NCBI GenBank assembly: GCA_964036295.1
Contig: OZ038466.1
Location: 21,504,597-21,568,596 of the forward strand
DNA: 64,000 nt
Source: Plumapathes pennacea
Taxonomy: Eukaryota > Cnidaria > Anthozoa > Antipatharia > Myriopathidae
Direction: 5' to 3'
Both the position numbers and the translations under genes were made by a program. Of the stretch, positions 1-64,000 are shown in pieces. The notes under the pieces were generated by a model, which saw only the letters and a program-made list of their open reading frames with translations, searched no databases and had not been told where the DNA came from. The first letter of the stretch is position 1; each line of letters opens with the position of its first letter.

Positions 1-718
1 CCCGCGGAAGATCTGTGAAAGACAGGGAGCAGGGGGATTAATTTGCAATGCGGGTTAAGGTAGAGCAGTACCAACTGCACACTGAAAATGTCCAGAAAAT
101 TTACAGCGAGTCAACAGCAGCTGCTCTGTTGTTGGTTCGTATTGTCTTGTAGCTATACGCAGATGGCACTAAAAGTATATGTAAATGTGGGTACGAGCCA
201 AAAAGTTCAATAAATACAAAAAAATTAGTCAATCATCAAACAAGGTACAATGAACTCTCTCTAAGGCGGACACCCTTAGTGCCCGGTCTAGGTGTCCGGC
301 TTATAGAGGTGTCCGTTTTAAGAACGTTGACTGTGTTCCCACGATAACAGACAACCACACAACAGCAACAACACAAACACAACTAAATAACTAACCCTGG
401 TTCTTCCATACTGTCGATACGGTACAAAGCGCCTGCCATCCCTGCTGTGAGACACGGCATAGCTCGTCACCCATTGGTGTGCATCTTGTCGACCCTGGGT
501 AGCCACGCCTGTTACAGTTGCCTGGGCGGCAAAGTCCACTTGAAGCCACTGGTTCTTGTTGTTGTGCTTAGCGCACCAAGCTCCCGCGCGGCCTCGGCCG
601 GCTGGTCGGTTTAGTCTGGAGCACTGGGGCCCGTGATTTGAGTTGTAGCTGGAAGAAGCGGACAAAGAACCGCTTGGAATTCTCTTGTCTTCAACACCTA
701 CAGCAACTTTGCAACGAC
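1..718 (-). CDS. Discoidin domain E5, cut by the window start (exons 396-718 and partial 1-12)
   Basis: The N exon (323 nt) reads [20 protein letters not shown] and [20 protein letters not shown], with an extra Cys absent from E1 to E4. It ends YRQYGRTR before donor GTTAGT. The loop before GAW ([10 protein letters not shown]) also differs from the Tyr-Ala-x-His loop of the others, so the type E assignment rests on position and the start of the exon. Positions 1-12 read Ile-Phe-Arg-Gly after a CAG acceptor, the expected first residues of the C exon. The inner intron (383 nt) has a GGCGGACAC repeat copy. Confidence 0.83.
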
Positions 719-3700: not shown

Positions 3701-6700
3701 TGAGACAATCAACTACAAGTTCTTACCAACTTTACAGCCGTATAACTCAGCTCTCATCGTTATGTAACCATGCCAACTCCTTGGTTGAATACGTATGTGT
3801 CGTGCGAGGATTGGTGGGTTGAAGGGCTGCTCTGATATGCTGTACCGGTCTCGGTTGGCAATGAAATACTGCGAAACAACAAACAATGAATCATTCGTCA
3901 AAAACAACAACAAAAAACTCCACACTGTAACGCTGATGCTTCTTTATTAAATGGATTATGTCAGCAAAATGGCTTTTCGTTGTGTCTCACTGGCTACATT
4001 CTTCTCTATGCAGACTTAACCTTTTCACTCCCAAGAGTGATCAACTTCATTTTTCTCCTTCAGTTTCTCACCAGAGATATATGATACAGTATGGAGAATT
4101 TGCCACTTGATAGTTCACTCAGACGAAAGCTGATTGGCTTAGCAATTCTCACATTATCACTCTCACATTTTCTTCTTTAATAGCAAGGGATATTGGTATC
4201 AGTTTTTAAAGCACAGACGACACTTGGAAATTTAATCAGCTGTACGAGAAATGAAACGACTTGAAGAAACAAATACCTGGCTGTAAAGAGTCTAAATAGT
4301 AGCTATTTTAAACTTTTTAATACTCGCATGGTATTTCTTTCTTTTTTTTTTCTTTAAACATATTTGAGCGTTCACCCCAAGAACTCATGGCTCATCGACA
4401 AAACAAAACAGGAGCTAAAACGCGTAAAACTGGATCGCTGGAGACTGCGTGGAGTGCCTACATAGTATTTCATTTCAAGAGAGGAAATTATCTTACCTTA
4501 TCTTGGCTATTCTGCCTGTACGTAGCCCAATGCAGTCCATCCTGGCTGTATGACACGGTGTATTTCTTTATCCACTGATTGGCATCTTTCCGTCCTTGCG
4601 TTGCGATTTTCGTGACTCTCATGGCACGCGTGAGGTCCACCTTGAACCACTGGTTGGCGTTGTTGTACTTAGCGATCCACGTGTACCTGCCGTTCAGTCG
4701 ACCCTGAGTTGCCGTGTACCGCTGGTTGTACACAGATGATGCGGTCACCATATTCTTGCCAATTTTTCCAGACGACATGCCCAAGGCGTTGTTGCAAATG
4801 GGGGCTAAACGAAGGACATTTCGTATGAGTACAAATCAACGTTATTTATATAGATGATGATGAAGATGATGAAGATGATGAAGAAGATGATGACGGTGAC
4901 AGTGATGAAGATGATGATGATGATGATGATGATGATGACGATGATGATGATGATGATGGTGAAGATGATGACGTTGCTCCTAAACACCCTTATTCACACG
5001 TTTCTTCCTGTTCTTACCTATAGGACAGCCAAACAGCTCCACACGCATGGACACCCAGCCGTACCAGATCCTCGGATGCACGCGGACATACATGGCTGAG
5101 ACAGGGCGGAAGAGCTTGTGGTACACCACTGTGTGTCTGTCAGTATTACCGTCGAAGACCTACAATAACAAGAACCTCAAAGTAAGTATCACAAATGAAG
5201 AGACCTGACAATGCAAAAACGAGCTCCAGTGCAAAGGCAATCAATCGGTTAAACAATACGTCAACTGGATTAAAAGTCATTCCTCGTTCCGTCCTTTTCC
5301 TTCTCGTTGAAAGACGTCAATTTTTAAACGTGATTACAAAACCGCACATTAATTCATGAAATAAAATTAGGCTGTACAACGGAAGAACAATCTATTCGTC
5401 TTTTCAACCCTTTACGTAAGCCTTCACGTAATGAGAATGCAGTCAGTTTGTGATTGGTCTTGTGAAGGGATCTACTGAGGTCCACTTTTGGCTTTAAAAT
5501 TGTAGAGGAATTTTGCTAGAAACTAAATCGTTCCAAAGAGAACGTATATCTGTCACAACGTAAGACTACGATTTTTGGATCATCTGCTGGTGAACTTGAC
5601 TTCATTGACCAAGGGTGCCCTTCGCTCACGCCTCGTATAATGAACAAATATAAAACAAAACAAAACAAAACAAAACAAAAGCATGCAAGACACACCTTTG
5701 CACCGCGACCAGCTTTGAAAAAGCTGTATTTGAGACCGTTAGGACTGTACGACAAGGTATAGCTCTTAACCCACTGATTTGCGTCTTGTCGACCTTGCGT
5801 GCTGATGCCTCGAACCGAAGTTAGAACACCAAAGTAGACCTGCAGCCATTGCTTTTTATTCTTCTGTCGCGCGCTCCAGGACCAGCGGTGGTTGATTCGT
5901 CCGTGCCACGGGGCGAGGTTCGAATTGTAGTAAGTGGAGGCTGTCATGTGACCGTTGCGGATTCGCTTATCTTCAAGGCCAAGTGGTGCGGAACAGCGAC
6001 CTAAACAGCACAAAAACAAAACAAAACAAATAAACAACAATGAATAATAACCACGTGAGCGAAGAGTAGTGGGAAAAAAACTACTGCGCATGACTGTGAA
6101 ACTGGCTTATACTTGTGTTAATTTGCGTGGACTTTTCCCGAGTCTGGTCGAGCTCAACGGAAGTAAATGCGCACTTATTTTAACTGTAGCTGTTTGTACT
6201 TTTATCTACACAGGATCCAGAGAAAGAAACGTTACCTTCTGGGCATCCGTAAAGCTCAATCCTCATCGAGATGTGTCGATACCAACCGTATGGATGTATC
6301 CGGACAAAATGTGCATGAATTCGGGGAAACAGGCGGTACAGCACCAGCGTGTTCTGGTCCCGATTTCCTTGAAAGTACTGTGTAGATAAAAGCAGGAAAA
6401 TAGGTTTTCGCTGCAACAAATTGTACCACTTAATGAAAAGGAAAATGATGGGAACAAGAAAGGACATTGAGAAGCTGGGACAAGAAGAACAACAAGGACT
6501 AAAATGAGTACAGAACAAAAACAAAGAAAACTTTTAGAATACTTGTTCAATCCAAACAAATTGCAAGTTCAATATCAAAGTAACCAAAGCCCGTGGGCTG
6601 CCTCCTGTAAAAACAATCGCCTTATCTTTACTGTAAAATGAAACGCAATCTTCAACAGCAAAGGCACCTGCAAGAAACCTGTTTTCATACCTTCCTGTTG

Positions 6701-48569: not shown

Positions 48570-48616
<47 letters not shown>

Positions 48617-57600: not shown

Positions 57601-60600
57601 CCGTACAGTTCTATTCTCATGGAAATATGTGAGCGCCAGCCCCATGGACGGACCCGGATGAAGCGTCCTCTGATGGCGGGATGGAACTGGTTTGACACAA
57701 CCGTGTGTCTGTCACGATTTCCTGGAAAATACTGCAGAAAAAATAGGAGAGTTTTACATCGTGGATGAGACTACGGTGACCTCTCACTTAGACAGACAAC
57801 CTCGGAACTAGCATTTAGTGTCCGCCTTAAAGAGAGTTCAGTTATAGAGAAACAAATAAAAATCGGCAAGGACCAAATCTGCATGCTGTCCGCCTTAGAG
57901 AAAGTTGACTGTATACTCTTTCCCAAAAATATATCATTTTCTCGAGAGTTTCATGCTTCAAGTATGATCTAGACAATTATTTAAGTGCATTGTCACTAAG
58001 GCGAGTAACTCTAGAGTTACATTTTGCATTGTTCGAGATCTTTTCAGTATTACAACGACACTAAAATAATGTAACAACAAAAGATGTTCCATCCTAATCA
58101 ATCATGTTGGCGGGCACATTTTTTCGACGAAAATGAGACGTGCCAAGATACACGGGCTTTCTCTTATTTCCAGGCACTCATTGTCTAAATAGATTTCAAG
58201 AACAAAATTCTTTGTATCAGAAATAACGGAGGCAATGCGTCACCTTAAAGTTGTTTCTTTCCTTGTACGTAACGAAATTGATTCCATCCAAACTGTGCAA
58301 TATGAGGTACTGCGTCACCCACTGGTCAGCGTCCTGTCGACCCTGGGTCGCTATTCTGATAATCTTGGACGGTCGACTAAAATCGATCTGCAGCCACTGG
58401 TAACGATTGTTGTACTTCGCAGACCACGCGCCCATGTAGCGACCACGCCTCTTTTTGTGAAGCCGAGCGAGGTATGGGCCGTGGTAGTTGTCCCACCTGG
58501 ACGAGGAAGTGACCAAGTGGTTCCTGATTCGTCCGGCCTGCATTCCCATTGGCCTGTTGCACATTTTACCTGAATTAAGGAACAACATGATATATGTCAT
58601 GCCCTGCTTATCTTTTTGGTAACAGAATGTTTCGTGCAGGACAACAACGCCGGATACCTTTTGAACGGATGATGTACACGTATCCGGTTTTGTTTGAAAA
58701 ATATTATTTTTTCTCTCTGCGGTTCGGCCTTCCGTCCACACGTAAAAAATGAAGACGGTCGTTGATAACGGAACTTTTCGAAAACACTCTCCAAAGTGGA
58801 AATTTTCGAAAACGCTGACAAAACAAGCAAGTACCATTCATGCCAGAATGAAATAAAAAGTGGTCATTGTTCACTATTAAAAAACGTTACTGACCAAAAT
58901 CTCTCCTTCACACTTACCCAGCCTACACCCGTACAGCTCAACTCTCATTGCAATATGGCCGTACCAAGACGTGGGCTGAATGCGAACATAACGAGCCTTG
59001 AAGGAAGGACGGAATCTGTGCGTGGACACATAGTAGCGTTCACTGTTACCCTGGAAGACCTGCAAGGAGGAACAGCGAAAAAAATCTTAAGTTATTTTGT
59101 TCAAAGTTCGATTAGATCGAAACTTTGACGTCATTTCTAAGCCTGAAAACGGTCGGCTTTTGCCCACAAAACGACTTCCTTGCTTAGTTTTGAGGTAGAC
59201 AAACTTTTTTTTAGTTACTCTTGTATCAAAACTCTGCAGTTTGTTGAACAAAAGCAGGAGGGAAAGAATCCTGTATTCAGTTCGCTAACTGTTGTGGTCA
59301 GGATAGATAGGAGAGCTCACGATAAAAAGAGAAAGAAATCTCGGACCTTTAGCTCGTCAGTAAACAGAGCAGTCCACAGCAAAAACTACCACAATTTTAA
59401 CTTCAGATTACAGATAAGCATTATTTGAAATCAAAATGTCACATAAATGCTGACAGTTTTTATAATGCAGGAAGACCATACTATAACATACCCGTGTGAC
59501 GCCTCCTTGTTTGTAAGGATAAAACCTCGCACCGTTGTGGCTGTAAGACACCATATAACTCTTGACCCACTGATTCGCGTCGTACCGAGCCTGGGTCGCA
59601 ATTCTCTTCACTCGGGCAGCCGTTCCCAAGTCAATCTGAAGCCACTGCTTTCGGTTGTTGTACTTAGCAACCCAGCCTCCTCGCGTGGAGCCGTGGTTAC
59701 GGGCCTGAAGTCTGGCGCACCACGGACCGTAGTAATGGTTGTAGAAGGAAGACGCAGTGAACATAGATCTGGTGATTCGGCCGTCTTGGACTCCAAGTGG
59801 TACATCACAAGGATCTAAAAATCAATAATGATTAATAGGGTTAGATTCGTGAACTTCATTCCATGTGCTTATCATTTCCATTTCGGCTAGTTATGTTTTA
59901 TTCCCAGATAAATAGTTTACTGATATGATATAGACGATGAATCACATATACGTGAACTGCGGAACATAGAATGATATCGAAAGTGACCCTTGCAGTTATG
60001 AAGCAACTTTTAAACCAGTTCAAAGGATGGCCAGGAAAAATATCTGGGTATAAACGGAAATCGAACCCATGACCTTGAGCGTCGCACCGGTTTATCCTTG
60101 CAACTGCGAGAGCCACTTTCATTTTCATTTGAAATAGTGCACTGTCACTGCTTTCGGTGGAGATGCAAAGACAACTACATCTACGAATCTGATCGCTCGA
60201 CCCTTTCTGCGCGTACCTGCACGGCATCCATAGAACTCGGTCCTCATACAAATGTGACGGTACCAGCCCCGCGGGCGGATGCGGATGTATCGCGCCATGA
60301 TGGCAGGATTCAGTGGATTCGTCACGACACTGTGTTGGTCCCTGTTGCCCTGAAAGTACTGAAGAAGAGAGAGCAAAGGTTAAGCAAACTGCAAACTCAA
60401 TAGAATGTCATAACGATTGTGTCAATGTAAAACCCGAACGAGTGGATTTTTGAACGTCAGCTTTCCCAAAACGAAAATGCAACGTTTAAATAACGTGCTA
60501 AACAACTGGAAAAAACCAGTTCGCGCAGTCACGGATTCGCGTAATTTTGAAAACATAATCCTTTTCCAGTTGAACCATTCTTGATCTGTGTCTGCGTCCG

Positions 60601-63600
60601 GTGAGTTAATATCTTTAGAACCAAAGCTATCCTTCTGCAAGAATTTCCAATACAATATCGAGTATTCTGCACGAATAGCTACTCAAAAGGAGGAAGAACA
60701 CTTGACTTTATTGTTCTATTTGGAGTTTCTTGTTTAACTCTAGATTAGTACCATGATGTCAAAGGAAAACTCAAGGTTTGTTCAGCTTTGCACTTTTCAA
60801 AAAGTGCAACGATTTGAAGAATTACTAGGTACGATTGTCTATTCACTTCCCTAATACGACGGCAAGTTATTCCTCTGTTAAATGCAGTGCCAGTAGAGGG
60901 CGACACACCCTGGGTACTAGAGTTTATCCCGTTCTAGGAAGCTCCGCGCTGCGCTGCGCGGCCACGTAAGGGCGACATCACAAGAGTGGCCAAAAAGATC
61001 TACAATAACGTGTGGACTTTAGTGAAAACTCTCTGAGCAGTTAAACAAATTTACCTTGTCATTGCTCTTGAACCTGTACACAGCCCAATGAATTCCATCC
61101 ATAGATGAATACAGCATGTACCTGGTCACCCATTGTCTGTTGTCGTGTCGACCTTGGGTCGCAATCTTCGTGATTTTCATTGGTCGGCCAAAGTCGACTT
61201 TGAACCACTGGTTATGATTGTTATATTTTGCGCACCATGCTCCCACGTACGCTCCGTGCTTTGTTCGACCCAGTCTCCCTAGCCACGCGGCATGGTATTT
61301 GTTGACCACAGATGAGGCAGTAACCTTGTTGTTTCTGAGCAAGCCTCGTTGCATCCCAAGCGCCTTGTTACAACCAGCGACTGAGTTAAGAGAGAAAAAA
61401 CACAGAGCGTTAGGGAAGGCGGATATTCTTCCTCTAAACTCTCTTAATTCTCACGCTTTCACTCGAACATTTCCTTAATATGCTTTGTACTTCGCACTTT
61501 GAATTGTGAACTCAAAATTCAAATCGCTAAATTGGATATGCAGAATAAAATGTCAACAACAAAGTCCAAATACAATCTTGGGCTTATTTTGTTTTAGTTT
61601 TTTAACACATGGATAACTATACACACAAACAGAAGTCCTTAAATTCTTTTGAACTAAATACTATTTTTAGTTCAACTTTGGTTAAAGTCTTGCAGTTTGT
61701 TCGCGAAGAGGATAGGCGAAGGAATTTGGTGAAACTATGTTACAGCGCTAATCGAGTTTAAGAAAAAAGAACAAGCAAACAAAAACGGATGTCACAGGAA
61801 ATATAAAATTACTTAAATTTACCCCTGCCTTAAATGTTAAAGGTTTTCGCTTAATATTCTTGATTATCAGTTACCTGTACAGCCGTACAGCTCAACTCTC
61901 ATTGAGATCCAGCTGTACCACGACGTCGGATGCAGACGAACATAAATTGCGGTGATAGGTCTCAAGAACTCGTGGTAGACAATCGAATGTCTATCAGTAT
62001 TGCCCACAAAATTCTGAAAAAAGAAAGTGTTTCATTAGATAACGATGTATCTGAATGTTGTGGCAGAGATAAGCCTGTCAAGCAGACATGCGAAACGATT
62101 CAACGCGCTTCACTTTTCCACCAGTACATGCCAAGATACACCATTATTCATGTCAGGTCTTGCAAGATGTTTCCAAGATCACGCAAGGAGTTTTAAATCC
62201 GTCGAAATCTTGCTTAAACCTTCAGGATTTTGCCAAGATTGTAAACTTAAAAAAACTATCATTATATTACCATTCAATTTTCCACAAGTACATGCCAAGA
62301 TACACCATTATTCTTGTCAGGTTTTGCAAGATGTTTCCAAGATCACGCAAGGAGTTTTAAATCCGTCTAAATCTTGCTTAAACCTTCAGGATTTTGCCAA
62401 GATTGTAAACTTAAAAGAACTATCATTATATTACCATGTCAAACCGGTGTTAAAACATGACAAATTTATACCTTCGTTCTGTGATTCTCCTTATAATAGT
62501 AGAACTTCATTCCATCCACACTGTATGAGACAGTGTACCGTTTGACCCACTGATTCGAGTCTTGGCGGCCTTGGGAAGCGACGCCCTTCACTCTCATGGG
62601 CTCCACAAAGTTCATCTGCAGCCACTGTCGGTTGTTCCTGTGCCGGACGCTCCATGACCAGCGGTGATTAAGTCGGCCATGCCAAGGAGCCAGGTTATGG
62701 TTATAGTAAGTGGTGGCTGACATCAGTCCATTTCGAAGACGCTTATCCTCCAGTCCGAGTGGCATTGCACAGCGATCTGTTTACATACAGAATACCTTCA
62801 CAATTATCGAAAGAAAAACGACTTTTCGCTTATTCGGAATGTTACGCTGAATTGGAAAGTTCGACCATTAGCTTTCTTTCTGCAATGTTTGTTTCTTTTT
62901 ATTATTACTGTTATTATTTTTTTTATTATTATTATTTTATTATTATTATTTTTTTAATTTTTTAATTTTTTTTCATTTTTTTCAAAATATGGAAATGCTC
63001 AGACAAACAGCTTTTGTACAACATCTTGGGAACTAGAGCGAGTTTTCCGGTCAAACTTCAGCAACTGAAATTAAATGAAGGAAAAATGATTTTGGGCTTT
63101 GCAGTTCAACTTTAATTTCAAAGCCAACGAATGTACGAATCATCATTACAGCACTCATCTAACTCCGATCAACATAAGACACAGTGCATACTTACAGTAC
63201 TACATATAGAGGATATTACACGGCGGCGCGAAGATATAAATTTTATTTTCGAGTGGTAAAAACAATATTTTACGAACGAGCGCTTCGCGAGTGAGTAAAA
63301 TATTGTTTTTACCACGAGAAAATAAAACCCATATCTTCAAGCCGCCGTGTAATTTTCTTTTTATTATATTAGGCACGAGTGTTTTACGAGAAATTGCACA
63401 AACAACCGTGCAAAAGCGGGAAATGATGCCAACGATATCCTCACTAGTGCCACTCGGGTCCCGGATGTAGTTTCGTATGGATTTTACGCACGGTATATTT
63501 TCCAGTAAAACACTCGTGTCTATATAATAAAAACTGACATTTAACTCAGCTCTATAACACCACTTTGGTAACTTCAATAAAGCAATTTACAAAATAGAAG

Positions 63601-64000
63601 TGATCTTGATAATATAGTGGACCCTGTAGAACAAATTAGCGAAAAAAGATAAACTTCACGATAAAATTGTATTATTTTTTAAGTTCAGTACTAGCAATGG
63701 CAAATGGACAAAGCAAGAAACCTACCTTCAGCACAGCCGTAAAACTCCGTCCTCATGGAAATGTGTGAGTACCAACTCCACGGGTGTATGCGGATGTAAC
63801 GAGCCCTTATTGGCGGATAAAATCCATTTTGTTTGACGCTGTTCTGGTCTTTGTTGCCTTGGAAGTACTGTAAGAACACGATAGAATAAGTTATACAGAC
63901 AACTCCCTTTCAGCGGACACCCCTCTAAGACCGACACCCGGTAGGAGTGGTCCCAGTCGTTTCTTGTCATTCACTCAACAGAACTCTCTTTAAGACAGAC
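1..64000 (-). CDS. Giant multi-exon gene for a tandem F5/8 type C (discoidin) domain protein, internal part
   Basis: Seventy-five exons, all on the minus strand, encode successive F5/8 type C domains. Each domain opens with a Cys (C-N/D-x-P-L-G) and has W-L-Q-V-D and I-A-T-Q-G-R cores. Each closes with A-R-x-x-R-I-x-P, I-S-M-R and E-L-Y-G-C. The first and last Cys are the family's usual disulfide pair. Every domain is two exons with phases 1-0 and 0-1, so domain units are symmetrical 1-1 modules. Summed exons give 5,716 codons without a stop. No initiator exon, signal peptide, transmembrane segment or stop exon was found, so both gene ends lie outside. Domains belong to eight types (A-H) repeated in order 4.6 times. 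Family knowledge suggests an extracellular glycan, lipid or matrix-binding protein; the ligand is unknown. Several adjacent genes cannot be excluded, but the unbroken phase argues for one. Confidence 0.88.
247..335 (+). repeat. GGCGGACAC dispersed repeat, copy 1
   Basis: AACTCTCTCTAAGGCGGACA begins this copy, and GGTGTCCG motifs follow in inverted orientation. It belongs to the same family as the copies at 44,045, 57,783 and 63,899. It is probably a small non-autonomous foldback element (inference). Confidence 0.7.
828..1744 (-). CDS. Discoidin domain D5, divergent (exons 1419-1744 and 828-969)
   Basis: The N exon reads [20 protein letters not shown] and [20 protein letters not shown]. It then has GRPAVNQW in place of GRQDADQW and ends in EKNRMK, so it is the most altered D copy. 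The C exon reads [18 protein letters not shown], then [14 protein letters not shown] (Val replaces Pro, and Leu replaces Met), and closes FYGCFIG. The inner intron (449 nt) shows nothing recognisable. The next intron is 109 nt. Confidence 0.88.
2235..3136 (-). CDS. Discoidin domain C5 (exons 2814-3136 and 2235-2373)
   Basis: The N exon reads [39 protein letters not shown] and [13 protein letters not shown]. The extra Cys of GPWC is Ser here. The C exon (139 nt) reads [17 protein letters not shown] and closes ELYGCRLG. The inner intron (440 nt) and the next intron (1,745-2,234) show nothing recognisable. Confidence 0.9.
3179..3230 (+). repeat. 51-bp repeat in the B5-C5 region, copy 1
   Basis: ACAGGAGCTAAAACGC, AAACTGGATCGCTGGAGA and GGAGTGCC match the copy at 4,408-4,458, about 90% alike by eye. 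Its origin is not recognised. Confidence 0.72.
3575..3626 (+). repeat. G-rich tract in the B5-C5 intron
   Basis: A run of 16 G, followed by AGGGG and GGGGGGTTGTGGGGG. It is the only notable element in the middle of this intron besides the 51-bp repeat. Confidence 0.88.
3727..4804 (-). CDS. Discoidin domain B5, divergent and shortened (exons 4497-4804 and 3727-3868)
   Basis: The N exon is 308 nt instead of 326. The loop is cut down to [17 protein letters not shown], losing six codons including the GAWC segment, while [15 protein letters not shown] still marks type B. The C exon reads [19 protein letters not shown] and closes ELYGCKVG. The frame is intact. The inner intron (628 nt) and the following intron (3,137-3,726, 590 nt) each hold one copy of a 51-bp repeat. 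The second also has a G-rich tract at 3,575-3,626. Confidence 0.87.
4018..4190 (+). repeat. Intronic dispersed repeat family 2, copy 1
   Basis: AACCTTTTCACTC, TTTCTCACCAGAGATATATG, ATACAGTATGGAGAA and GAAAGCTGATT appear in this order. The same landmarks recur at 34,846-35,060 and, inverted, at about 24,935-25,110. Confidence 0.68.
4408..4458 (+). repeat. 51-bp repeat in the B5-C5 region, copy 2
   Basis: Same landmarks and strand as 3,179-3,230. The two copies sit in the two introns on either side of the B5 C exon, next to the C5 and B5 N exons respectively. Confidence 0.72.
4852..4975 (+). repeat. GAT trinucleotide microsatellite
   Basis: ATGATGAAGATGATG-type repeats with interruptions fill most of the 213-nt intron between A5 and B5. 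Apparent acidic or Met-rich reading frames here are low-complexity artefacts. Confidence 0.92.
5018..6000 (-). CDS. Discoidin domain A5 (exons 5696-6000 and 5018-5159)
   Basis: The short type A loop [20 protein letters not shown] is present, with the core [20 protein letters not shown], in which Tyr replaces Asp or Asn. The C exon (142 nt, one codon more than A1 to A4) reads [17 protein letters not shown] and closes LFGCPIG. The inner intron (536 nt) has a CAAAA repeat near the N exon. The hydrophobic stretch that an open frame adds upstream of the exon comes from the polypyrimidine tract and is not counted as a signal peptide. Confidence 0.89.
5649..5682 (+). repeat. CAAAA pentanucleotide repeat
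   Basis: Several CAAAA units lie just downstream (transcript sense) of the A5 N exon donor. A similar CAAAA/CGAAA tract lies at 7,071-7,105 upstream of H4. Confidence 0.88.
6236..7016 (-). CDS. Discoidin domain H4 (exons 6691-7016 and 6236-6377)
   Basis: The N exon reads [40 protein letters not shown] and the type H end [11 protein letters not shown]. This is the only H copy with an extra Cys in GAW. The C exon reads [17 protein letters not shown] and closes LYGCPEG. This assignment shows that the order of domain types continues across the 15-kb satellite. The inner intron (313 nt) and the next intron (235 nt) show nothing recognisable. Confidence 0.9.
7101..7157 (+). repeat. Left copy of a second, shorter flanking repeat
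   Basis: AACTAACCAACGGACTAG followed by ACCACTGAAAACG. A related sequence lies at 23,929-23,982 on the other side of the satellite. The two flanking repeats are in opposite relative order on the two sides (short then long on the left, long then short on the right), but each keeps the same strand. Confidence 0.7.
7248..7367 (+). repeat. Left copy of a 120-bp direct repeat flanking the minisatellite
   Basis: It begins TCAAAGCAGCAAGGCAG and contains GCGGAAGTAGCTATTT and ACTGGCTCAATTCA. The same sequence, roughly 85% alike by eye, is at 22,921-23,039, exactly where the satellite ends. About 210 bp of unrelated sequence separates this copy from the first satellite unit. Confidence 0.85.
7680..10250. 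repeat. 1,377-bp tandem block duplication within the minisatellite
   Basis: The sequence from about 7,680 to 8,870 recurs at about 9,057 to 10,250 at an offset of 1,377 bp (53 units less one base). The same order of unit variants is kept, including an identical 201-nt open stretch at 8,010 and 9,387. A further offset of 988 bp (38 units) links about 11,111 and 12,099. Confidence 0.82.
16795..21960. repeat. Higher-order repeats of 960 and 778 bp within the minisatellite
   Basis: A rare unit variant, CCAAGCTGGACCC, recurs with its first CTGG at about 15,641, 17,481, 18,441, 19,219, 20,179, 21,139 and 21,917. The spacings are 1,840, 960, 778, 960, 960 and 778 bp. By eye, about 16,795-17,700 and 17,755-18,660 are identical at an offset of 960. 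The 778-bp form lacks seven units (182 bp). This points to recent amplification of large blocks. Confidence 0.88.
22921..23039 (+). repeat. Right copy of the 120-bp direct repeat flanking the minisatellite
   Basis: It abuts the last satellite unit and has the same orientation as the copy at 7,248-7,367. It differs mainly by a poly-T expansion in the middle (about 22,957-22,972). Confidence 0.85.
23847..23896 (+). repeat. GGGAAGTA short tandem repeat
   Basis: Five or six units of AGGGAAGT or AGGGAAGC lie between the satellite and the G4 C exon. Confidence 0.85.
23929..23982 (+). repeat. Right copy of the second flanking repeat
   Basis: AACTAACCAACAGACTAA followed by ACCACTGAAAACGG, about 80% like 7,101-7,157 by eye. 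It is preceded at 23,847-23,896 by a GGGAAGTA tandem repeat. The rest of 23,040-23,928 shows nothing recognisable. Confidence 0.7.
24032..24837 (-). CDS. Discoidin domain G4 (exons 24515-24837 and 24032-24170)
   Basis: The extra Cys pair is kept ([12 protein letters not shown] and [14 protein letters not shown]), with the loop [12 protein letters not shown]. The C exon is 139 nt, one codon shorter than in G1 to G3: it reads [19 protein letters not shown] and closes YYGCVVG. The inner intron (344 nt) shows nothing recognisable. The next intron, to H4, is 17,015 nt (7,017-24,031) and contains the 26-bp minisatellite. The matching introns elsewhere are 74, 318 and 434 nt. Confidence 0.9.
24935..25110 (-). 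repeat. Intronic dispersed repeat family 2, inverted copy
   Basis: CTACTATATGATATATTTCT then GGTGAGAAAGTGAAG is the reverse complement of the central part of the copies at 4,018 and 34,846. It lies in the intron between domains F4 and G4. Confidence 0.58.
25255..28539 (-). CDS. Discoidin domain F4, split by a 2.8-kb intron (exons 28211-28539 and 25255-25396)
   Basis: The N exon reads [40 protein letters not shown] and the tail VNEWWDTVK. The C exon reads [15 protein letters not shown] and RSHISMR, and closes LYGCPW with A at the split codon. This pairs it with type F N exons and makes the 2,814-nt gap between them an enlarged intron. In F1, F2 and F3 the same intron is 247-648 nt. The extra length consists of degenerate tandem repeats (listed separately). 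Confidence 0.87.
26068..26265 (+). repeat. Two tandem copies of a ~99-bp repeat in the F4 intron
   Basis: Copies at about 26,068-26,166 and 26,167-26,265 share GGGCACTTCAAA or GGGACACTTCAAA, TTGGCGGT, and ATCCTGGTGCG or GTCCTGGTGCG. A third partial copy is at about 26,583-26,648. Short open frames across it on both strands look like by-products of the repeat. Confidence 0.7.
26288..27010 (+). repeat. Degenerate ~453-bp tandem duplication in the F4 intron
   Basis: The stretch from about 26,288 (ACTGAGAATGCTC, then ATCTCAGGTAAATCAG) recurs from about 26,741 (ACTAAGAATGTTC, then ATCTCAGGTAAATCAG). Shared landmarks are TAGTCATTTTTAGG, TTCGAACAGCAGAAGGC, and GATGGTTGCTATTCCA or AATGGTTGCTATTCCA. 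No gene is apparent in it. Confidence 0.75.
27232..27695 (+). repeat. Degenerate tandem repeats with ACTTGCGTTAA and GAGAGG runs
   Basis: AAGAAAAGTGCGCGTTG at 27,234 recurs as AAGAAAAGTGCGTGTTG near 27,389. CTATATAAGACTTGCGTTAA near 27,298 recurs near 27,611, each time followed by a GA-rich run. The remaining intron sequence (27,700-28,210) shows nothing recognisable. Confidence 0.65.
28685..29472 (-). CDS. Discoidin domain E4 (exons 29150-29472 and 28685-28829)
   Basis: The N exon reads [20 protein letters not shown] and [20 protein letters not shown]. The sequence upstream of the exon does not match the intron flank shared by E1, E2 and E3. The C exon reads [16 protein letters not shown], with Ala in place of Gly, and keeps the type E extra codon (YGCRHKG). 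The donor is GTTCGT. The inner intron (320 nt) holds an AACG microsatellite and a poly-C run. The next intron is 145 nt. Confidence 0.9.
29067..29129 (+). repeat. AACG tetranucleotide microsatellite
   Basis: GAAC/AACG repeats lie about 20 nt downstream (in transcript sense) of the E4 N exon donor. A poly-C run at 28,929-28,948 is in the same intron. Confidence 0.92.
29967..30856 (-). CDS. Discoidin domain D4 (exons 30531-30856 and 29967-30108)
   Basis: The N exon reads [20 protein letters not shown] and [20 protein letters not shown]. The C exon reads [18 protein letters not shown] and closes EFIGCLTG, with Ile replacing the Tyr before Gly-Cys. The inner intron (422 nt) has a poly-A run close to the C exon (about 30,117-30,149). 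The next intron (29,473-29,966) shows nothing recognisable. Confidence 0.9.
31151..31704 (-). CDS. Discoidin domain C4 (exons 31382-31704 and 31151-31292)
   Basis: The N exon reads [39 protein letters not shown] and [13 protein letters not shown]. The C exon reads [17 protein letters not shown] and closes ELYGCRLG. The inner intron of 89 nt is the shortest within any domain in this window. The next intron (30,857-31,150) has a short TAGG-rich stretch at about 31,093-31,140 beside the C exon. Confidence 0.9.
31739..31865. repeat. Possible foldback fragment with GGTTCACACG and GTGTGAAC ends
   Basis: GGCTGGTTCACACGC near the left and CCGTGTGAACGG near the right, with AGCGCAAG and CGCTTGCGCTTG between, are partly inverted. 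It sits in the B4-to-C4 intron. Confidence 0.4.
31976..32604 (-). CDS. Discoidin domain B4 (exons 32279-32604 and 31976-32114)
   Basis: The N exon reads [20 protein letters not shown] and [19 protein letters not shown] replaces the GAWC of B1 to B3. The exon ends Ser-Asp-Val before the donor, whereas other type B exons end Asp-Lys. The C exon (139 nt) reads [19 protein letters not shown] and closes FYGCAG, one codon shorter than other type B exons. The inner intron is 164 nt. The next intron (31,705-31,975) includes a possible foldback fragment. Confidence 0.89.
32860..33421 (-). CDS. Discoidin domain A4 (exons 33117-33421 and 32860-32998)
   Basis: The N exon has the short type A loop [20 protein letters not shown] and the core [20 protein letters not shown]. 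The C exon reads [16 protein letters not shown] and [10 protein letters not shown], where Ala replaces the Val or Ile of the Y-V-R-I motif. It then reads [14 protein letters not shown], where Ala replaces Met. The inner intron is 118 nt. The next intron (255 nt) shows nothing recognisable. Confidence 0.89.
33736..34701 (-). CDS. Discoidin domain H3 (exons 34376-34701 and 33736-33877)
   Basis: The N exon reads [40 protein letters not shown] and the end [11 protein letters not shown]. The DFGR motif is DFRR here, as it is DFKR in H4. The C exon reads [17 protein letters not shown] and closes FYGCREG. The inner intron (498 nt) and the next intron (33,422-33,735) show nothing recognisable. Confidence 0.9.
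34846..35060 (+). repeat. Intronic dispersed repeat family 2, copy 3
   Basis: TAACCTTTTCACTCTCAAAG, ATATCATACAGTGTGGAGAA and GATGAAAGCTGATTAACAT match the copy at 4,018. GTTGAGAGAATCTGCATTTT near the right end suggests this copy is longer. It lies in the intron between G3 and H3. Confidence 0.65.
35136..36047 (-). CDS. Discoidin domain G3 (exons 35725-36047 and 35136-35277)
   Basis: The extra Cys pair is present ([12 protein letters not shown] and [14 protein letters not shown]). The N exon ends PYRENKRTK with donor GTGCAG, weaker than the usual GTAAG or GTATG. A long poly-G run sits about 20-50 nt into the intron. The C exon reads [17 protein letters not shown] and closes FYGCIVG. The next intron (34,702-35,135) holds a copy of a dispersed repeat also found near 4.0 and 25.0 kb. 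Confidence 0.89.
35668..35707 (+). repeat. Poly-G tract near the G3 N exon donor
   Basis: Over 20 consecutive G with flanking G-rich sequence. In the transcript it is a poly-C tract beginning about 20 nt after the donor. Confidence 0.92.
36374..37295 (-). CDS. Discoidin domain F3 (exons 36967-37295 and 36374-36515)
   Basis: The N exon reads [20 protein letters not shown] and [20 protein letters not shown], with the tail IKHWWDSVK. It has Ser in GAWS where F1, F2 and F4 have Cys, so the extra Cys of type F is not essential. The C exon reads [16 protein letters not shown] and closes LYGCPW, ending in A. The inner intron (451 nt) contains a poly-A run near 36,691-36,709. The next intron (36,048-36,373) shows nothing recognisable. 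Confidence 0.9.
37506..38107 (-). CDS. Discoidin domain E3 (exons 37785-38107 and 37506-37650)
   Basis: The N exon is nearly identical to E2 over the first two thirds ([40 protein letters not shown]), then differs at its end ([11 protein letters not shown]). The C exon reads [18 protein letters not shown] and YSYVAMR, with the extra codon after the closing Cys (YGCRILG). The inner intron is only 134 nt, and the next intron to F3 is 210 nt. Confidence 0.9.
38214..38241 (-). pseudogene. Relic of a type D C exon (3' end only)
   Basis: The minus strand reads His-Glu-Leu-Tyr-Gly-Cys-Leu-Lys-Gly followed by GTTCGTTACAAT. D2 reads Glu-Leu-Tyr-Gly-Cys-Leu-Thr-Gly followed by GTTTGTTATACT, so both the exon end and the donor-side intron are alike. 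The rest of the exon is not recognisable, and the functional D3 C exon is 300 nt further upstream. It occupies the position that the D2 C exon has relative to E2. Confidence 0.7.
38542..39448 (-). CDS. Discoidin domain D3 (exons 39123-39448 and 38542-38683)
   Basis: The N exon reads [20 protein letters not shown] and [20 protein letters not shown]. The C exon reads [18 protein letters not shown] and closes FYGCLTG. Its acceptor is AAG, as in D2. The inner intron (439 nt) contains a dispersed repeat shared with the E1 intron. The next intron (38,108-38,541) carries a relic of another type D C exon, so this intron is longer than its counterpart at D2 (90 nt). Confidence 0.9.
38897..39050 (+). 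repeat. Intronic dispersed repeat family 3, copy 1
   Basis: TAGGCCATTTTTGAGAT, CTGTTTCAAAGAGGCCTAGT and GCAAAACCTTCC match the order seen at 56,665-56,790. It lies in the D3 inner intron. Confidence 0.58.
39814..40590 (-). CDS. Discoidin domain C3 (exons 40268-40590 and 39814-39955)
   Basis: The N exon reads [39 protein letters not shown] and [13 protein letters not shown]. The donor follows CGG, as in C1. The C exon reads [17 protein letters not shown] and ends ELYGCRLG. The inner intron (312 nt) and the next intron (39,449-39,813) show nothing recognisable. Confidence 0.9.
41024..41905 (-). CDS. Discoidin domain B3 (exons 41580-41905 and 41024-41165)
   Basis: The N exon reads [20 protein letters not shown] and [15 protein letters not shown]. 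The extra Cys of GAWC is present, but the C exon has RSRISMR without the second extra Cys seen in B1 and B2. The C exon begins [19 protein letters not shown] and closes FYGCRTG. The inner intron (414 nt) is mostly a degenerate TCAC-rich repeat. The next intron (40,591-41,023) shows nothing recognisable. Confidence 0.9.
41240..41530 (+). repeat. Degenerate TCAC/ATTCAC-rich repeat
   Basis: Irregular copies of CACTCACTCA and GATTCACAACTC make up most of the B3 inner intron. Confidence 0.8.
42320..43142 (-). CDS. Discoidin domain A3 (exons 42838-43142 and 42320-42458)
   Basis: The short type A loop [20 protein letters not shown] and the core [15 protein letters not shown] are present. The C exon reads [16 protein letters not shown]. 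It ends with VELRGCSG: Arg replaces the Tyr that precedes Gly-Cys in nearly all copies. The inner intron (379 nt) shows nothing recognisable. The next intron (41,906-42,319) holds a short sequence near 42,018-42,110 that may be part of a dispersed repeat, with low certainty. Confidence 0.89.
43155..43352 (+). repeat. 98-bp tandem duplication in the H2-A3 intron
   Basis: AGCATTACCGGAACTTTAGT at 43,155 recurs as AGCATTATCGGTACTTTAGT at 43,253. Both copies continue through a GGGGAGGGGAG tract. Confidence 0.78.
43838..44895 (-). CDS. Discoidin domain H2 (exons 44570-44895 and 43838-43979)
   Basis: The N exon reads [20 protein letters not shown] and [18 protein letters not shown], ending [11 protein letters not shown]. 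It has few internal Met codons, so it is easy to miss, but the frame is open from acceptor to donor. The C exon reads [16 protein letters not shown] and closes FYGCPEG. The 590-nt inner intron carries the best preserved copy of the GGCGGACAC dispersed repeat. The next intron (43,143-43,837) has a 98-bp tandem duplication next to the A3 exon and a poly-T run near 43,630-43,642. Confidence 0.89.
44045..44212 (+). repeat. GGCGGACAC dispersed repeat, copy 2 (best preserved)
   Basis: It opens AACTCTCTCTAAGGCGGACA and closes CCGCTTAGAGAGAGTTGA, forming terminal inverted repeats around internal copies of GTGTCCGCCTTAGAGA. It includes AATCGGCAAGGACCAA, which is also found in copy 3. Confidence 0.75.
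45214..46008 (-). CDS. Discoidin domain G2 (exons 45686-46008 and 45214-45355)
   Basis: The extra Cys pair of type G is present ([12 protein letters not shown] and [10 protein letters not shown]), with the basic loop [12 protein letters not shown]. The linker before the first Cys is Ser-Arg after joining the A of F2. The C exon reads [17 protein letters not shown] and closes FFGCIVG. The inner intron (330 nt) and the next intron (44,896-45,213) show nothing recognisable. Confidence 0.9.
46035..46270 (+). repeat. Imperfect CACAT/GACAT repeat tract
   Basis: Short irregular copies such as TGACATGACATGACA and TCACATCACGAACC fill the F2-to-G2 intron. Confidence 0.75.
46323..47040 (-). CDS. Discoidin domain F2 (exons 46712-47040 and 46323-46464)
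   Basis: The N exon reads [20 protein letters not shown] and [13 protein letters not shown], where Ile replaces Thr of TQGR. Its tail is VNELWDSVK. The first Cys is followed by Ser-Ser, not Asn. The C exon reads [16 protein letters not shown] and closes LFGCAW, ending in A at the split codon. The 247-nt inner intron is plain. The next intron (46,009-46,322) is largely imperfect CACAT/GACAT repeats. Confidence 0.9.
47135..47997 (-). CDS. Discoidin domain E2 (exons 47675-47997 and 47135-47279)
   Basis: The N exon is very close to E3 and E1, with [20 protein letters not shown] and [20 protein letters not shown]. The intron sequence just upstream of the exon is also shared with E3 and E1. The C exon has [22 protein letters not shown] and the extra codon after the closing Cys (YGCRTRG). 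The inner intron (395 nt) shows nothing recognisable. The next intron to F2 is 94 nt. Confidence 0.9.
48088..48976 (-). CDS. Discoidin domain D2 (exons 48651-48976 and 48088-48229)
   Basis: The N exon reads [20 protein letters not shown] and [20 protein letters not shown]. Type D copies 2 to 5 have Ser in place of Ala in the S/A-TQG segment. The C exon reads [18 protein letters not shown] and ends ELYGCLTG, with donor G|GTTTGTTATAC. The inner intron (421 nt) contains a CT microsatellite next to the N exon and a possible dispersed repeat near 48,310-48,440. Only 90 nt separate this domain from E2. Confidence 0.9.
48310..48440. repeat. Possible dispersed repeat with CTAACTCCAATTAAC and AAGTTATCGGGATA
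   Basis: The stretch has internal near-repeats of AACTC/ATAACTCG and a partly inverted right part. It resembles a small foldback remnant, but no second copy is in this window. Confidence 0.3.
48571..48614 (+). repeat. CT dinucleotide microsatellite
   Basis: An uninterrupted CT run in the D2 inner intron, about 35 nt from the N exon. Confidence 0.95.
49172..49901 (-). CDS. Discoidin domain C2, shortened loop (exons 49594-49901 and 49172-49310)
   Basis: The N exon is 308 nt instead of 323. Five codons are missing in the loop before the core: the usual RNHGSxRGGW is reduced to SRGTWLSRV, and the extra Cys of GPWC is Gly here. The frame is kept. The C exon (139 nt) reads [16 protein letters not shown] and ends ELYGCRLG. 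The 283-nt inner intron carries two relic copies of the beginning of a C exon immediately upstream of the real one. Confidence 0.88.
49329..49379 (-). pseudogene. Relic of the 5' part of a type C C exon
   Basis: After a CAG, the minus strand reads [17 protein letters not shown]. This resembles the start of the functional C2 C exon ([18 protein letters not shown]), which begins 19 nt further downstream at 49,310. It stops abruptly and is presumably not spliced in, since the length would not keep the phase pattern. Confidence 0.68.
49389..49430 (-). pseudogene. Second, shorter relic of the 5' part of a C exon
   Basis: The minus strand reads TTTCAGGAAAATGCCGGTAG then ATATCACGTATTG. It parallels the relic at 49,329-49,379 (TTCCAGGAAATACCTATAG, then CTATTACGTACTG) and the real exon start. 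The three stacked pieces lie 40-70 nt apart. Confidence 0.55.
50257..51105 (-). CDS. Discoidin domain B2 (exons 50780-51105 and 50257-50398)
   Basis: The N exon reads [20 protein letters not shown] and [15 protein letters not shown]. As in B1, the first Cys is preceded by a short Val-Ser-Gly leader after an acceptor AAAG. The C exon begins [14 protein letters not shown], with Ala in place of the Gly in F.GN, and keeps the extra Cys of RHICMR. The 381-nt inner intron has A-rich and G-rich stretches. The next intron (49,902-50,256) shows nothing recognisable. Confidence 0.89.
51559..52765 (-). CDS. Discoidin domain A2 (exons 52461-52765 and 51559-51697)
   Basis: This copy has the short type A loop [19 protein letters not shown] and the core [20 protein letters not shown]. 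The C exon starts [16 protein letters not shown], where Leu-Trp-Ile replaces the usual V/I-F-x, and ends EFYGCEG. The inner intron (763 nt, 51,698-52,460) is one of the longer ones. It includes a cluster of GGTCGTCC direct and inverted copies near 51,738-51,820. The next intron (51,106-51,558) shows nothing recognisable. Confidence 0.89.
51738..51820. repeat. Cluster of GGTCGTCC direct and inverted copies
   Basis: GGTCGTCCGGTCGTCC, GACGACC, GGACGACC and TTTGGTCGTCC lie within 80 nt and could form small hairpins. No known element is recognised. Confidence 0.55.
53106..53835 (-). CDS. Discoidin domain H1 (exons 53510-53835 and 53106-53247)
   Basis: Type H is marked by [20 protein letters not shown], then [18 protein letters not shown] and the acidic end [11 protein letters not shown]. 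The C exon reads [13 protein letters not shown] and closes FYGCPEG. The core [12 protein letters not shown] is shared by H1, H2, H3 and H4. The inner intron is 262 nt. The next intron (52,766-53,105) leads to A2 and ends the first visible eight-domain unit; it holds no promoter-like or signal-peptide exon that I can see. Confidence 0.9.
53910..54725 (-). CDS. Discoidin domain G1 (exons 54403-54725 and 53910-54051)
   Basis: Type G has two extra Cys, one in [12 protein letters not shown] and one in [10 protein letters not shown], which may form a second disulfide. The basic loop is [12 protein letters not shown]. The core segment [17 protein letters not shown] uses Asn-Ser in place of Asp-Ala. 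The C exon reads [22 protein letters not shown] and FYGCIVG. Only 74 nt separate this domain from H1, among the shortest introns here. The inner intron (351 nt) shows nothing recognisable. Confidence 0.9.
54960..56078 (-). CDS. Discoidin domain F1 (exons 55750-56078 and 54960-55101)
   Basis: Type F has the longest N exon (329 nt). It reads [20 protein letters not shown], then [20 protein letters not shown], and ends in a tryptophan-rich tail (IKDWWSSIK) not seen in other types. The N exon nucleotide sequence is nearly the same in F1, F2, F3 and F4. The C exon ends YGCAW and donates A, not G, to the split codon, so the linker to the G domain starts with Asn or Ser instead of Gly or Asp. The inner intron (648 nt) has no recognised element. 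Confidence 0.9.
56411..57250 (-). CDS. Discoidin domain E1 (exons 56928-57250 and 56411-56555)
   Basis: Type E is marked by [19 protein letters not shown], then a Tyr-Ala-Ser/Gly-His loop, then [20 protein letters not shown]. It has no extra Cys. The C exon of type E is 145 nt, one codon longer than usual, because of an insertion after the closing Cys (YGCRLRG). E1 has [15 protein letters not shown] and ARFIQIRP, where Gln replaces an Arg conserved in most copies. The inner intron (372 nt) contains a dispersed repeat shared with the D3 intron. Confidence 0.9.
56665..56790 (+). repeat. Intronic dispersed repeat family 3, copy 2
   Basis: TAGGTTATTTCTGATAT, CTCTGTTTCAACAAAAGGCC and TGGTGCAAAACCTTTC match 38,897-39,050, at lower similarity towards the ends. 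It lies in the E1 inner intron. Confidence 0.55.
57590..58569 (-). CDS. Discoidin domain D1 (exons 58244-58569 and 57590-57731)
   Basis: Type D is marked by [16 protein letters not shown] and [16 protein letters not shown], without the extra Cys in GAW. In D1 the core reads [15 protein letters not shown], with Ser replacing the usual Gly after DF. The C exon reads [13 protein letters not shown] and [10 protein letters not shown]. The inner intron (512 nt) carries one copy of the GGCGGACAC dispersed repeat. The next intron (57,251-57,589) shares its first 40-50 nt beside the E1 exon with the matching introns at E2 and E3. Confidence 0.9.
57783..57916 (+). repeat. GGCGGACAC dispersed repeat, copy 3
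   Basis: GTGTCCGCCTTAAAGAGAGT, AATCGGCAAGGACCAAA and GTCCGCCTTAGAGAAAGTTG align with copy 2 in the same order. The left end is degraded. Confidence 0.72.
58918..59814 (-). CDS. Discoidin domain C1 (exons 59492-59814 and 58918-59059)
   Basis: Type C is recognised by [19 protein letters not shown] and the loop RNHGSxRGGW. C1 has [12 protein letters not shown]: Ala replaces the Gly of the TQGR motif, the only such change among the domains read here. The donor of the N exon follows CGG instead of AAG. The C exon begins [10 protein letters not shown] and ends ELYGCRLG. The inner intron (432 nt) and the next intron (58,570-58,917) show nothing recognisable. Confidence 0.9.
60030..60130 (-). repeat. 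Possible tRNA-derived SINE or tRNA-like sequence
   Basis: On the minus strand, GGTTCGATTTCC resembles a pol III B box, preceded by GTGGCTCTCGCAGTTGC as a possible A box about 40 nt upstream. A full tRNA cloverleaf is not evident, so a SINE head or a chance match is more likely than a functional tRNA. Confidence 0.35.
60217..61380 (-). CDS. Discoidin domain B1 (exons 61055-61380 and 60217-60358)
   Basis: Type B is recognised by HAAWLGRL and by [15 protein letters not shown], where Phe-Lys replaces the Leu-Gln of other types. It also has HWAVYRFK near the end of the N exon. B1 carries an extra Cys in GAWC and another in the C exon (RHICMR). The N exon starts with Val-Ala-Gly before the first Cys. 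The inner intron is 696 nt and has no recognised element apart from a GC-rich stretch near 60,945-60,965. The next intron holds a tRNA-like sequence. Confidence 0.9.
61875..62776 (-). CDS. Discoidin domain A1 (exons 62472-62776 and 61875-62013)
   Basis: Type A has the shortest N exon (305 nt). The loop before the QWLQ core is [11 protein letters not shown] instead of the RRxGRxGAW form, about seven residues shorter than in other types. Here the core reads QWLQMNF and the stabilising segment [12 protein letters not shown]. The C exon starts unusually with [10 protein letters not shown] and ends ELYGCTG. The inner intron (458 nt) contains a 164-bp tandem duplication. The next intron (61,381-61,874) shows nothing recognisable. 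Confidence 0.9.
62114..62441 (+). repeat. 164-bp tandem duplication in the A1 inner intron
   Basis: Copies at about 62,114-62,277 and 62,278-62,441 share CATGCCAAGATACACCATTA, GATCACGCAAGGAGTTTTAA and CAGGATTTTGCCAAGATTG with only a few differences. The short open frames across it are incidental. Confidence 0.9.
63215..63353. repeat. Foldback element 1 (139 bp)
   Basis: ATTACACGGCGGC at the left is the exact reverse complement of GCCGCCGTGTAAT at the right. Inside, GTGGTAAAAACAATATTTTAC pairs with GTAAAATATTGTTTTTACCAC with little mismatch, around a short centre GAACGAGCGCTTCGCGAG. Almost the whole element would fold into one hairpin. Confidence 0.85.
63358..63533. repeat. Foldback element 2 (176 bp), adjacent to element 1
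   Basis: The left end, TTTTTATTATATTAGG then CACGAGTGTTTTAC, pairs with the right end, GTAAAACACTCGTG then TCTATATAATAAAAA. These are terminal inverted repeats of about 29 bp. The interior is not palindromic and shows no gene, which fits a MITE-like element. Confidence 0.8.
63726..63867 (-). CDS. Domain H0, C exon only (N exon lies beyond the window)
   Basis: This 142-nt exon reads [11 protein letters not shown] at its start, [10 protein letters not shown] in the middle and FYGCAEG at its end. That matches the C exons of H1 to H4, so it closes an H-type domain whose N exon is outside. The acceptor is CAG and the donor is G|GTAGG. The 949-nt intron that follows (62,777-63,725) has an AT-rich run (about 62,900-62,985) and two foldback elements. 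Confidence 0.88.
63899..64000 (+). repeat. GGCGGACAC dispersed repeat, copy 4, cut by the window end
   Basis: CAACTCCCTTTCAGCGGACA, CTAAGACCGACACC and, at the edge, AACTCTCTTTAAGACAGAC. It is the most diverged of the four copies and continues outside. Confidence 0.6.

Follow-up and report, generated by a model that had tools for sequence, protein, structure and literature searches.

Organization of the discoidin array

The locus described here raises the question of whether a very long run of discoidin domains is built from single domains or from a larger, ordered unit, and of how such a unit may have grown and what it may serve. The window, that is, the whole analysed stretch of 64,000 nucleotides (G000:C5:21504597-21568596), was searched together with 70 kb on each side (204 kb of a 290 Mb genome), using profiles built from the window's own N and C exons and accepting matches with E values of up to 0.05. 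The search revealed an array of 83 discoidin (F5/8 type C) domains, all with open frames and all on the minus strand, in which 83 N exons and 83 C exons alternate from C5:21,599,492 down to 21,472,243. Each domain consists of one N exon (phase 1-0) and one C exon (phase 0-1); these phases were imposed during splice-site choice, open frames were not, and for the N exon of d24 an upstream acceptor with stops was discarded and the exon was trimmed by hand. Because the phases are symmetrical, any run of domains could be copied in frame.

All 83 units fit the discoidin exon models, and nebulin, Ig and FnIII modules are not the building unit. Two of the domains were scanned with PF00754 and passed its cut-off of 28.2 bits (d22, 82.3 bits; d76, 103.9 bits); the remaining 81 were assigned by the window-built exon models only. 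The domain has about 156 residues, and the joints between domains have 3-7 residues, as measured at 63 of 70 joints, namely those with both cysteines. The terminal cysteine pair is found in 67 of the 83 domains, and the other 16 (d4, d7, d8, d16 and d72-d83) lack both members, never one singly. The discoidin domains alone account for 12,844 residues.

The initial annotation, made from the window, had counted 36 complete domains and 75 exons. The domain count was confirmed (d26-d61); the window proved to contain the N exons of d26-d62 (37) and the complete C exons of d25-d61 (37), the remainder being 12 bases of one further C exon at the left window edge. The features of the window are as follows, with the N exon given before the slash and the C exon after it.

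63726..63867, minus strand: C exon of d25 (type H, block 3), from the exon profiles; its N exon lies outside the window.
53106..62776, minus strand: block 4, A-H (d26-d33). A 62472-62776 / 61875-62013; B 61055-61380 / 60217-60358; C 59492-59814 / 58918-59059; D 58244-58569 / 57590-57731; E 56928-57250 / 56411-56555; F 55750-56078 / 54960-55101; G 54403-54725 / 53910-54051; H 53510-53835 / 53106-53247.
43838..52765, minus strand: block 5, A-H (d34-d41). A 52461-52765 / 51559-51697; B 50780-51105 / 50257-50398; C 49594-49901 / 49172-49310; D 48651-48976 / 48088-48229; E 47675-47997 / 47135-47279; F 46712-47040 / 46323-46464; G 45686-46008 / 45214-45355; H 44570-44895 / 43838-43979.
33736..43142, minus strand: block 6, A-H (d42-d49). 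A 42838-43142 / 42320-42458; B 41580-41905 / 41024-41165; C 40268-40590 / 39814-39955; D 39123-39448 / 38542-38683; E 37785-38107 / 37506-37650; F 36967-37295 / 36374-36515; G 35725-36047 / 35136-35277; H 34376-34701 / 33736-33877.
6236..33421, minus strand: block 7, A-H (d50-d57), split by the satellite. A 33117-33421 / 32860-32998; B 32279-32604 / 31976-32114; C 31382-31704 / 31151-31292; D 30531-30856 / 29967-30108; E 29150-29472 / 28685-28829; F 28211-28539 / 25255-25396; G 24515-24837 / 24032-24170; H 6691-7016 / 6236-6377.
7577..22920, no strand: 26-base satellite, about 591 copies over 15.3 kb, in the 17,015-base intron between d56 (G of block 7) and d57 (H of block 7).
1..6000, minus strand: block 8, first five domains (d58-d62; the window edge truncates d62). 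A 5696-6000 / 5018-5159; B 4497-4804 / 3727-3868; C 2814-3136 / 2235-2373; D 1419-1744 / 828-969; E 396-718 / 1-12 (rest outside).

The type-A N exons begin exactly where they had been placed, at 62,472, 52,461, 42,838, 33,117 and 5,696, with spacings of 10.0, 9.6 and 9.7 kb and then 27.4 kb across the 26-base satellite, the insertion of which left the A-H order undisturbed.

Eight domain types in a fixed order

Domains d1-71 form nine blocks of types A-H in a fixed order, the ninth being incomplete; the order claimed in the initial annotation thus holds, and it extends beyond the window. The eight full blocks have 1,231-1,239 residues each, in keeping with the predicted protein period of about 1,245. 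Mean amino acid identity among d1-71 was 0.43 at odd lags, 0.49 at lags 2 and 6, 0.51 at lag 4, 0.70 at lag 8 and 0.69 at lag 16. The lag-8 value (0.7005) was reached in none of 20,000 shuffles of domain order (shuffle mean 0.479, sd 0.010), and for 67 of the 71 domains the closest relative lay some multiple of eight positions away (shuffle mean 8.0). Clustering by neighbour, which would contradict the proposed order, was absent: only 4 of 71 nearest relatives lay off the multiples of eight. Adjacent domains did not exceed the other odd-lag pairs in similarity (mean 0.43, maximum 0.50). Exon lengths also followed type in d1-71: N exons of 305 bases occur in 8 of 9 A domains, of 329 bases in 7 of 9 F domains and of 326 bases in all nine D domains, and the C exon of type E has 145 bases in 6 of 9.

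A tree of all 83 domains revealed the expected type clades with one member per repeat, although their support was uneven. Types A (9/9), D (9/9), G (8/8) and H (9/9) formed pure clades; B, E and F each lacked one member from block 9 (d67, d70 and d71, respectively), and the C clade held all nine C domains together with one stray from block 9 (d70). Support (SH-aLRT/bootstrap) was high for B (97.1/100), E (89.4/99), G (99.3/100) and C without block 9 (99.6/100), and weak for A (66.2/83), D (86.6/46), F (26.7/57) and H (83.3/54). Odd and even types were split at 97.4/95, with d73, 75, 77, 79, 81 and 83 on the odd side. A clean 2-4-8 doubling held only partly: the even types paired as B with F (89.7/97) and D with H (88/69, plus d69), but among the odd types A paired with G (78.9/81). 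Among 5,040 circular type orders, 144 scored as well at lag 4 and 112 at lag 2. The comparisons show what appears to be an older two-fold alternation underlying the eight types, with a four-fold alternation that is only partial. Five of the seven most type-specific alignment columns fell in the stretch 25-46 and two at the joints; the top 28 were spread, with 8 in 25-46, 3 at joints and 17 elsewhere.

The array and its flanking domains

Nothing at the block borders suggests a series of genes. The nine H-A introns measure 165-949 nt, the other borders 65-712 nt except for the 17,015-nt satellite intron, and coral gene models cross H-A borders (29 domains in one Porites model); because of these lengths and models, no H-A border resembles a gene break, and separate genes joined by mistake were ruled out. 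An assembly artefact was also ruled out, as there is no N in the 204 kb and the blocks differ at 20-52% of residues. Read with the coral gene models, the minus strand carries in order an N-terminal domain, 71 discoidin domains, a vWD and EGF-like part, 12 discoidin domains and a vWA domain, and the array and its flanking parts appear, as predicted from DNA and coral models, to constitute one gene.

The exon of the N-terminal domain lies at window position 95,502-95,996 and shares 78% identity with Porites P0122 and 65% with Exaiptasia P0048, in both of which this domain directly precedes the discoidins. The domain (NFDFE..., HINFDDLRG), which corresponds to the first 190 residues of P0041 and P0048 and is common to coral and anemone, gave no Pfam match for the copy in the window gene. 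P0041 and Exaiptasia P0048 begin with an apparent signal peptide, as judged by eye; an upstream scan of the window gene yielded candidates, none of which was assignable.

The interval between d71 and d72 contains stretches that match the vWD and EGF-like region of Acropora P0154. The hand-joined VWD piece scored 42.8 bits, and EGF_Teneurin matched marginally (27.8 bits against a cut-off of 24.3), with other EGF models below their cut-offs; Pfam VWD was also found in Acropora P0154 and Montipora P0003. Montipora P0003 carries nine domains that correspond, one after another, to d63-d71, and vWD comes next. The order in Acropora P0154 is four domains matching d67, d68, d69 and d71, then vWD and the EGF-like part, then nine domains fitting d72-d80, of which seven fit by best match and two match a same-type copy. 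Domains d72-83 repeat in fours (identity 0.57 at lag 4 vs 0.47 at lag 1), and three of the four types form clades of 3/3 and the fourth of 2/3. The vWA domain (112 bits) lies about 1 kb beyond the array and was assigned to the gene by position alone.

Conservation in other anthozoans and related loci

Homologs were typed with models made from the window gene, lower case denoting a best type that leads by less than 15 bits. We classified 60 of the best 120 of 797 homologs and all 32 of a second set, and examined few of a further 118 (10 proteins, some of them from the earlier sets). Complete order was found in Porites evermanni P0121 (E-F-G-H, A-H three times, A; 29/29 domains) and P0122 (H, then A-H twice; 17/17), Pocillopora damicornis P0001 (H-A-B-C-D-E-F-G-H-A-B-C-D; 13/13) and P0006 (C-D-E-F-G; 5/5), Acropora digitifera P0005 (F-G-H-A-B-C-D; 7/7) and Montipora capricornis P0007 (C-D-E-F-G-H; 6/6). 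Acropora digitifera P0004 reads B-C-D-E-F-G-h-A-d and Montipora capricornis P0003 F-G-h-A-d-C-D-C-h; the odd terminal calls of both correspond to block 9 by tree and best match. P0021 reads a-b-z3-d-e-f and groups with block 9, and in Exaiptasia P0048 the N-terminal domain shared with the window gene stands before discoidins typed h-a-B-a. P0121 by itself also peaks at lag 8, at 0.67 against about 0.41 at odd lags. A clean A-H order was not seen in A. cervicornis P0016, and the other classified proteins (within the 60 of the best 120 and the 32 of 32), including several from Nematostella, had no A-H order. Pocillopora is a robust and Porites a complex stony coral, and the A-H order is shown by these gene models in both groups. 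The trees and the N-terminal domain place the window gene in a hexacoral outside the stony corals sampled; it may come from a corallimorpharian, a group that is sister to stony corals according to PMC5068439.

The same genome holds a second discoidin array with a two-domain unit and 33 N exons (G000:C2:36220001-36260000, L023-L026), in which identity is 0.77 at lag 2 and about 0.40 at odd lags and a later copy of an 8.8-kb block is visible by eye. Further clusters of discoidin exons lie on C1, C2, C4, C6, C9, C10 and C11, among 150 matches scored out of 677 candidates, the window's own included.

Growth of the blocks

The blocks of the window gene were compared with those of the corals in a domain tree of 57 of its 83 domains (blocks 2, 3, 5, 7 and 8 and d67-d83; d66 was left out) and 70 homolog domains of over 110 residues, and in a tree of 22 blocks with four or more domains. 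The block tree paired b9 with Montipora, b1 with Porites and b8 with Acropora P0004, each at 100/100, and this one-to-one pairing indicates that the end blocks are old and single. Blocks b2-b7 of the window gene grouped together (96.1/76), as did ten coral central blocks (92.3/93); under a second model these two central groups received bootstrap/SH-aLRT values of 90/99.2 and 97/96.7. Within the coral group, two Pocillopora-Porites pairs at 100/100 indicate that several stony-coral central blocks predate the robust/complex split. A single clade of all window blocks, as full homogenisation would produce, was rejected (p-AU 1.6e-5), as was placement of b2 with the coral central blocks (p-AU 0.007). 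Grouping of b7 with the last Pocillopora/Porites central blocks was not rejected (p-AU 0.08), so that b7 may also be an old separate block.

Identity within b2-b7 was 0.70-0.80 and dropped with block distance from 0.76 to 0.70; compared with b2-b7, block 1 stood at 0.63-0.66, block 8 at 0.58-0.61 and block 9 at 0.49-0.51. The silent-site difference at lag 8 had a median of 0.71 and a minimum of 0.33 and amounted to at least 0.70 in 32 of 63 pairs. Silent sites are thus near saturation, which argues that the blocks are ancient and rules out recent amplification. The 12 least diverged pairs gave dN/dS of 0.13-0.27, indicating purifying selection on the domains in these pairs. The initial annotation had proposed growth by copying of eight already diverged domains. 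This proposal is supported and can be refined: the blocks are not recent, growth seems to have occurred in the middle with the ends kept, and the window lineage probably amplified or homogenised much of its own middle.

Intron alignments between blocks were found in 5 of about 560 same-position pairs, all of them D-to-E, in 7 of about 4,410 other same-kind pairs and in 12 pairs of different kinds. The D-to-E intron (57251-57589, 47998-48087 and 38108-38541 in the window) alone still aligns at the same position (d21, d29, d37 and d45), and the 12 pairs least diverged at silent sites include nine of C, D or E domains; a conversion tract or a splicing element is possible in this region.

Charge and predicted fold

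Domains d1-71 carry a net charge of +1,301 over 10,976 residues (+11.9 per 100 residues), with a median of +19 per domain, compared with a median of 0.2 per 100 residues for 222 homologs and a charge of +1.8 for the paralogous array on contig C2. Of the 14 most basic homologs, 13 could be attributed to this gene on the basis of domain type, tree position or the N-terminal domain, P0016 loosely so, the fourteenth being the unclassified P0072; P0072 and P0028 are nearly as basic, and the A-H order was not shown for either. Strong basicity sets the array apart from nearly all other discoidin proteins retrieved. There was one N-glycosylation site in d1-71 against 74 expected; since such sites are also absent in nectin P0022, P0153, P0155 and the exons of the contig C2 array, their scarcity is not specific support for the function proposed below.

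A model of a five-domain ortholog reached a pLDDT of 88 (61 with a 6-row alignment). For four of the five modelled domains, taken singly, the matches listed include factor V/VIII C2, neuropilin b1 and related structures, so that the factor V/VIII C2 jelly roll is the predicted fold. Taken as one unit, the five-domain chain matched no solved chain among the 50 matches listed (TM by query 0.14-0.22). Relatives in factor V/VIII bind membranes and neuropilin b1 binds peptides; the basic charge alone does not fix a ligand.

Possible origin and function of the eight-domain unit

The explanation that we favour, with a probability of about 0.45, is that an ancient block of eight types was copied mainly in the middle and that its product is a secreted, long, multivalent polycation binding anionic partners; the function is inferred from sequence features. 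An ancestral discoidin domain would have doubled and then diverged, and the eight types would have arisen before the sampled stony corals split. The block of eight would then have been copied by unequal exchange, mainly centrally, while the end blocks stayed unique. The product would be secreted, with loop faces of eight sorts and as many kinds of joint repeating along the chain, and anionic partners such as sulfated mucus or matrix glycans or acidic surfaces might be bound cooperatively along it, in adhesion or in cross-linking of mucus or matrix. FA58C, vWD and EGF domains together recur in marine adhesive proteins, according to passages of PMC10057474.

The unit of eight may instead have no function of its own and be merely the size of the piece copied by unequal exchange, as in satellite DNA, with selection acting on single domains and on total length. 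We consider this somewhat unlikely. Block identity that is highest centrally (b2-b7), lower for blocks 1, 8 and 9 and declining with distance is what exchange would give, the second array of the genome has a unit of two, and domain repeats often grow by several domains at once, many of them centrally, as stated in parts of PMC1553488. Types, exon lengths, loops and joints nevertheless stay distinct and common to corals despite near-saturated silent sites, an argument that concerns upkeep and not origin; the two views can hold together.

Neighbours might also be kept unlike one another to avoid misfolding between domains, which would favour multi-domain units over the copying of single ones. 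Selection against aggregation is discussed in sections of PMC1553488, and the low odd-lag identities, shared by neighbours here and by the alternating contig C2 array, fit such an effect; misfolding avoidance accounts for a unit of two, not of eight, and we regard it as an unlikely explanation. It is more doubtful still that the block is a physical repeat, with one regular turn or binding register per block. The gene would then encode a highly basic extracellular polymer serving as a molecular ruler or fibre, a discoidin counterpart of titin, kept since before the stony corals radiated and lengthened centrally by whole registers.

Discoidin domains bind sugars in several proteins, and the loops differ by type, as might be expected of an immune or symbiont-recognition lectin offering many binding loops to microbes. 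Such a lectin is very improbable, however, because low dN/dS in the measurable pairs and loop residues common by type across species are not what a rapidly evolving recognition array would show. Proteins of the skeletal matrix are often acidic, and Exaiptasia does not calcify. A skeleton-matrix protein of calcifying corals is the least credible reading, given the N-terminal domain and h-a-B-a discoidins of the sea anemone Exaiptasia P0048, even though clear A-H arrays were found in stony corals among the proteins classified and a calcification paper mentions FA58C domains in scleractinian transmembrane proteins (PMC8382919).

Comparison with known repeats

The array shares with nebulin and titin a multi-domain unit repeated with position-specific types. 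Nebulin modules are cytoskeletal, and NBPF-type units are recent and nearly identical, a recency not matched here (lag-8 silent difference, median 0.71 and minimum 0.33). Copying of several domains at once, often centrally, is described in passages of PMC1553488 with the seven domains of nebulin as an example; as in the nebulin super-repeats, types recur here in a fixed order, but exon borders lie inside the domains in nebulin and both between and inside the discoidin domains here. The titin A-band (6 x 7 and 11 x 11 domains) likewise has repeats of repeats with position-specific sequences (parts of PMC10665226), but mixes Ig and FnIII in a muscle protein, whereas one domain kind in eight types is used here. 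NBPF/Olduvai triplets are also a protein-coding higher-order repeat, the tandem form of which is given as human-specific in sections of PMC9584774, whereas the present order is common to several genera, with silent sites near saturation. Sea-urchin nectin (P0022) has tandem discoidins with a signal peptide and is confirmed as adhesive (parts of PMC10057474), but its six domains show no eight-type order, carry a charge of -1.1 vs +11.9 per 100 residues here, and make up the whole protein, whereas the present gene has 83 domains with N-terminal, vWD and EGF-like parts. The three domain kinds of FA58C/vWD/EGF marine adhesive proteins occur together here, the EGF match being marginal. The contig C2 array is also a discoidin multi-domain unit, but of two domains and near-neutral charge.

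Super-repeats are thus already known (nebulin, titin, NBPF), and it is the use of discoidin domains as the repeated unit that sets the present array apart from these. No discoidin super-repeat was described in titles or abstract openings among the matches listed, in a literature that lacks most subscription journals, and six gene models (five from corals, one from an anemone) are not mentioned in it under their locus names. The array adds a clear case of a higher-order repeat in coding sequence that belongs neither to a muscle nor to a primate gene. Because its end blocks each have their own coral partner and its middle seemingly grew separately by lineage, the growth and upkeep of such repeats are open to direct study. 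A very large product and an extreme polycation is predicted, and public coral gene sets carry it as several partial, uncharacterized models, three of those from Acropora digitifera being on a contig of equal length.

Neighbouring sequence

The tRNA and Rfam scans of the 64-kb window found nothing. Outside the window, we observed a Rab-type GTPase gene (113725-116149, minus strand), a TPMT-like methyltransferase frame (119679-120473, plus strand) and lipase-like frames, one of them Pfam-checked (about -41000 to -57500).
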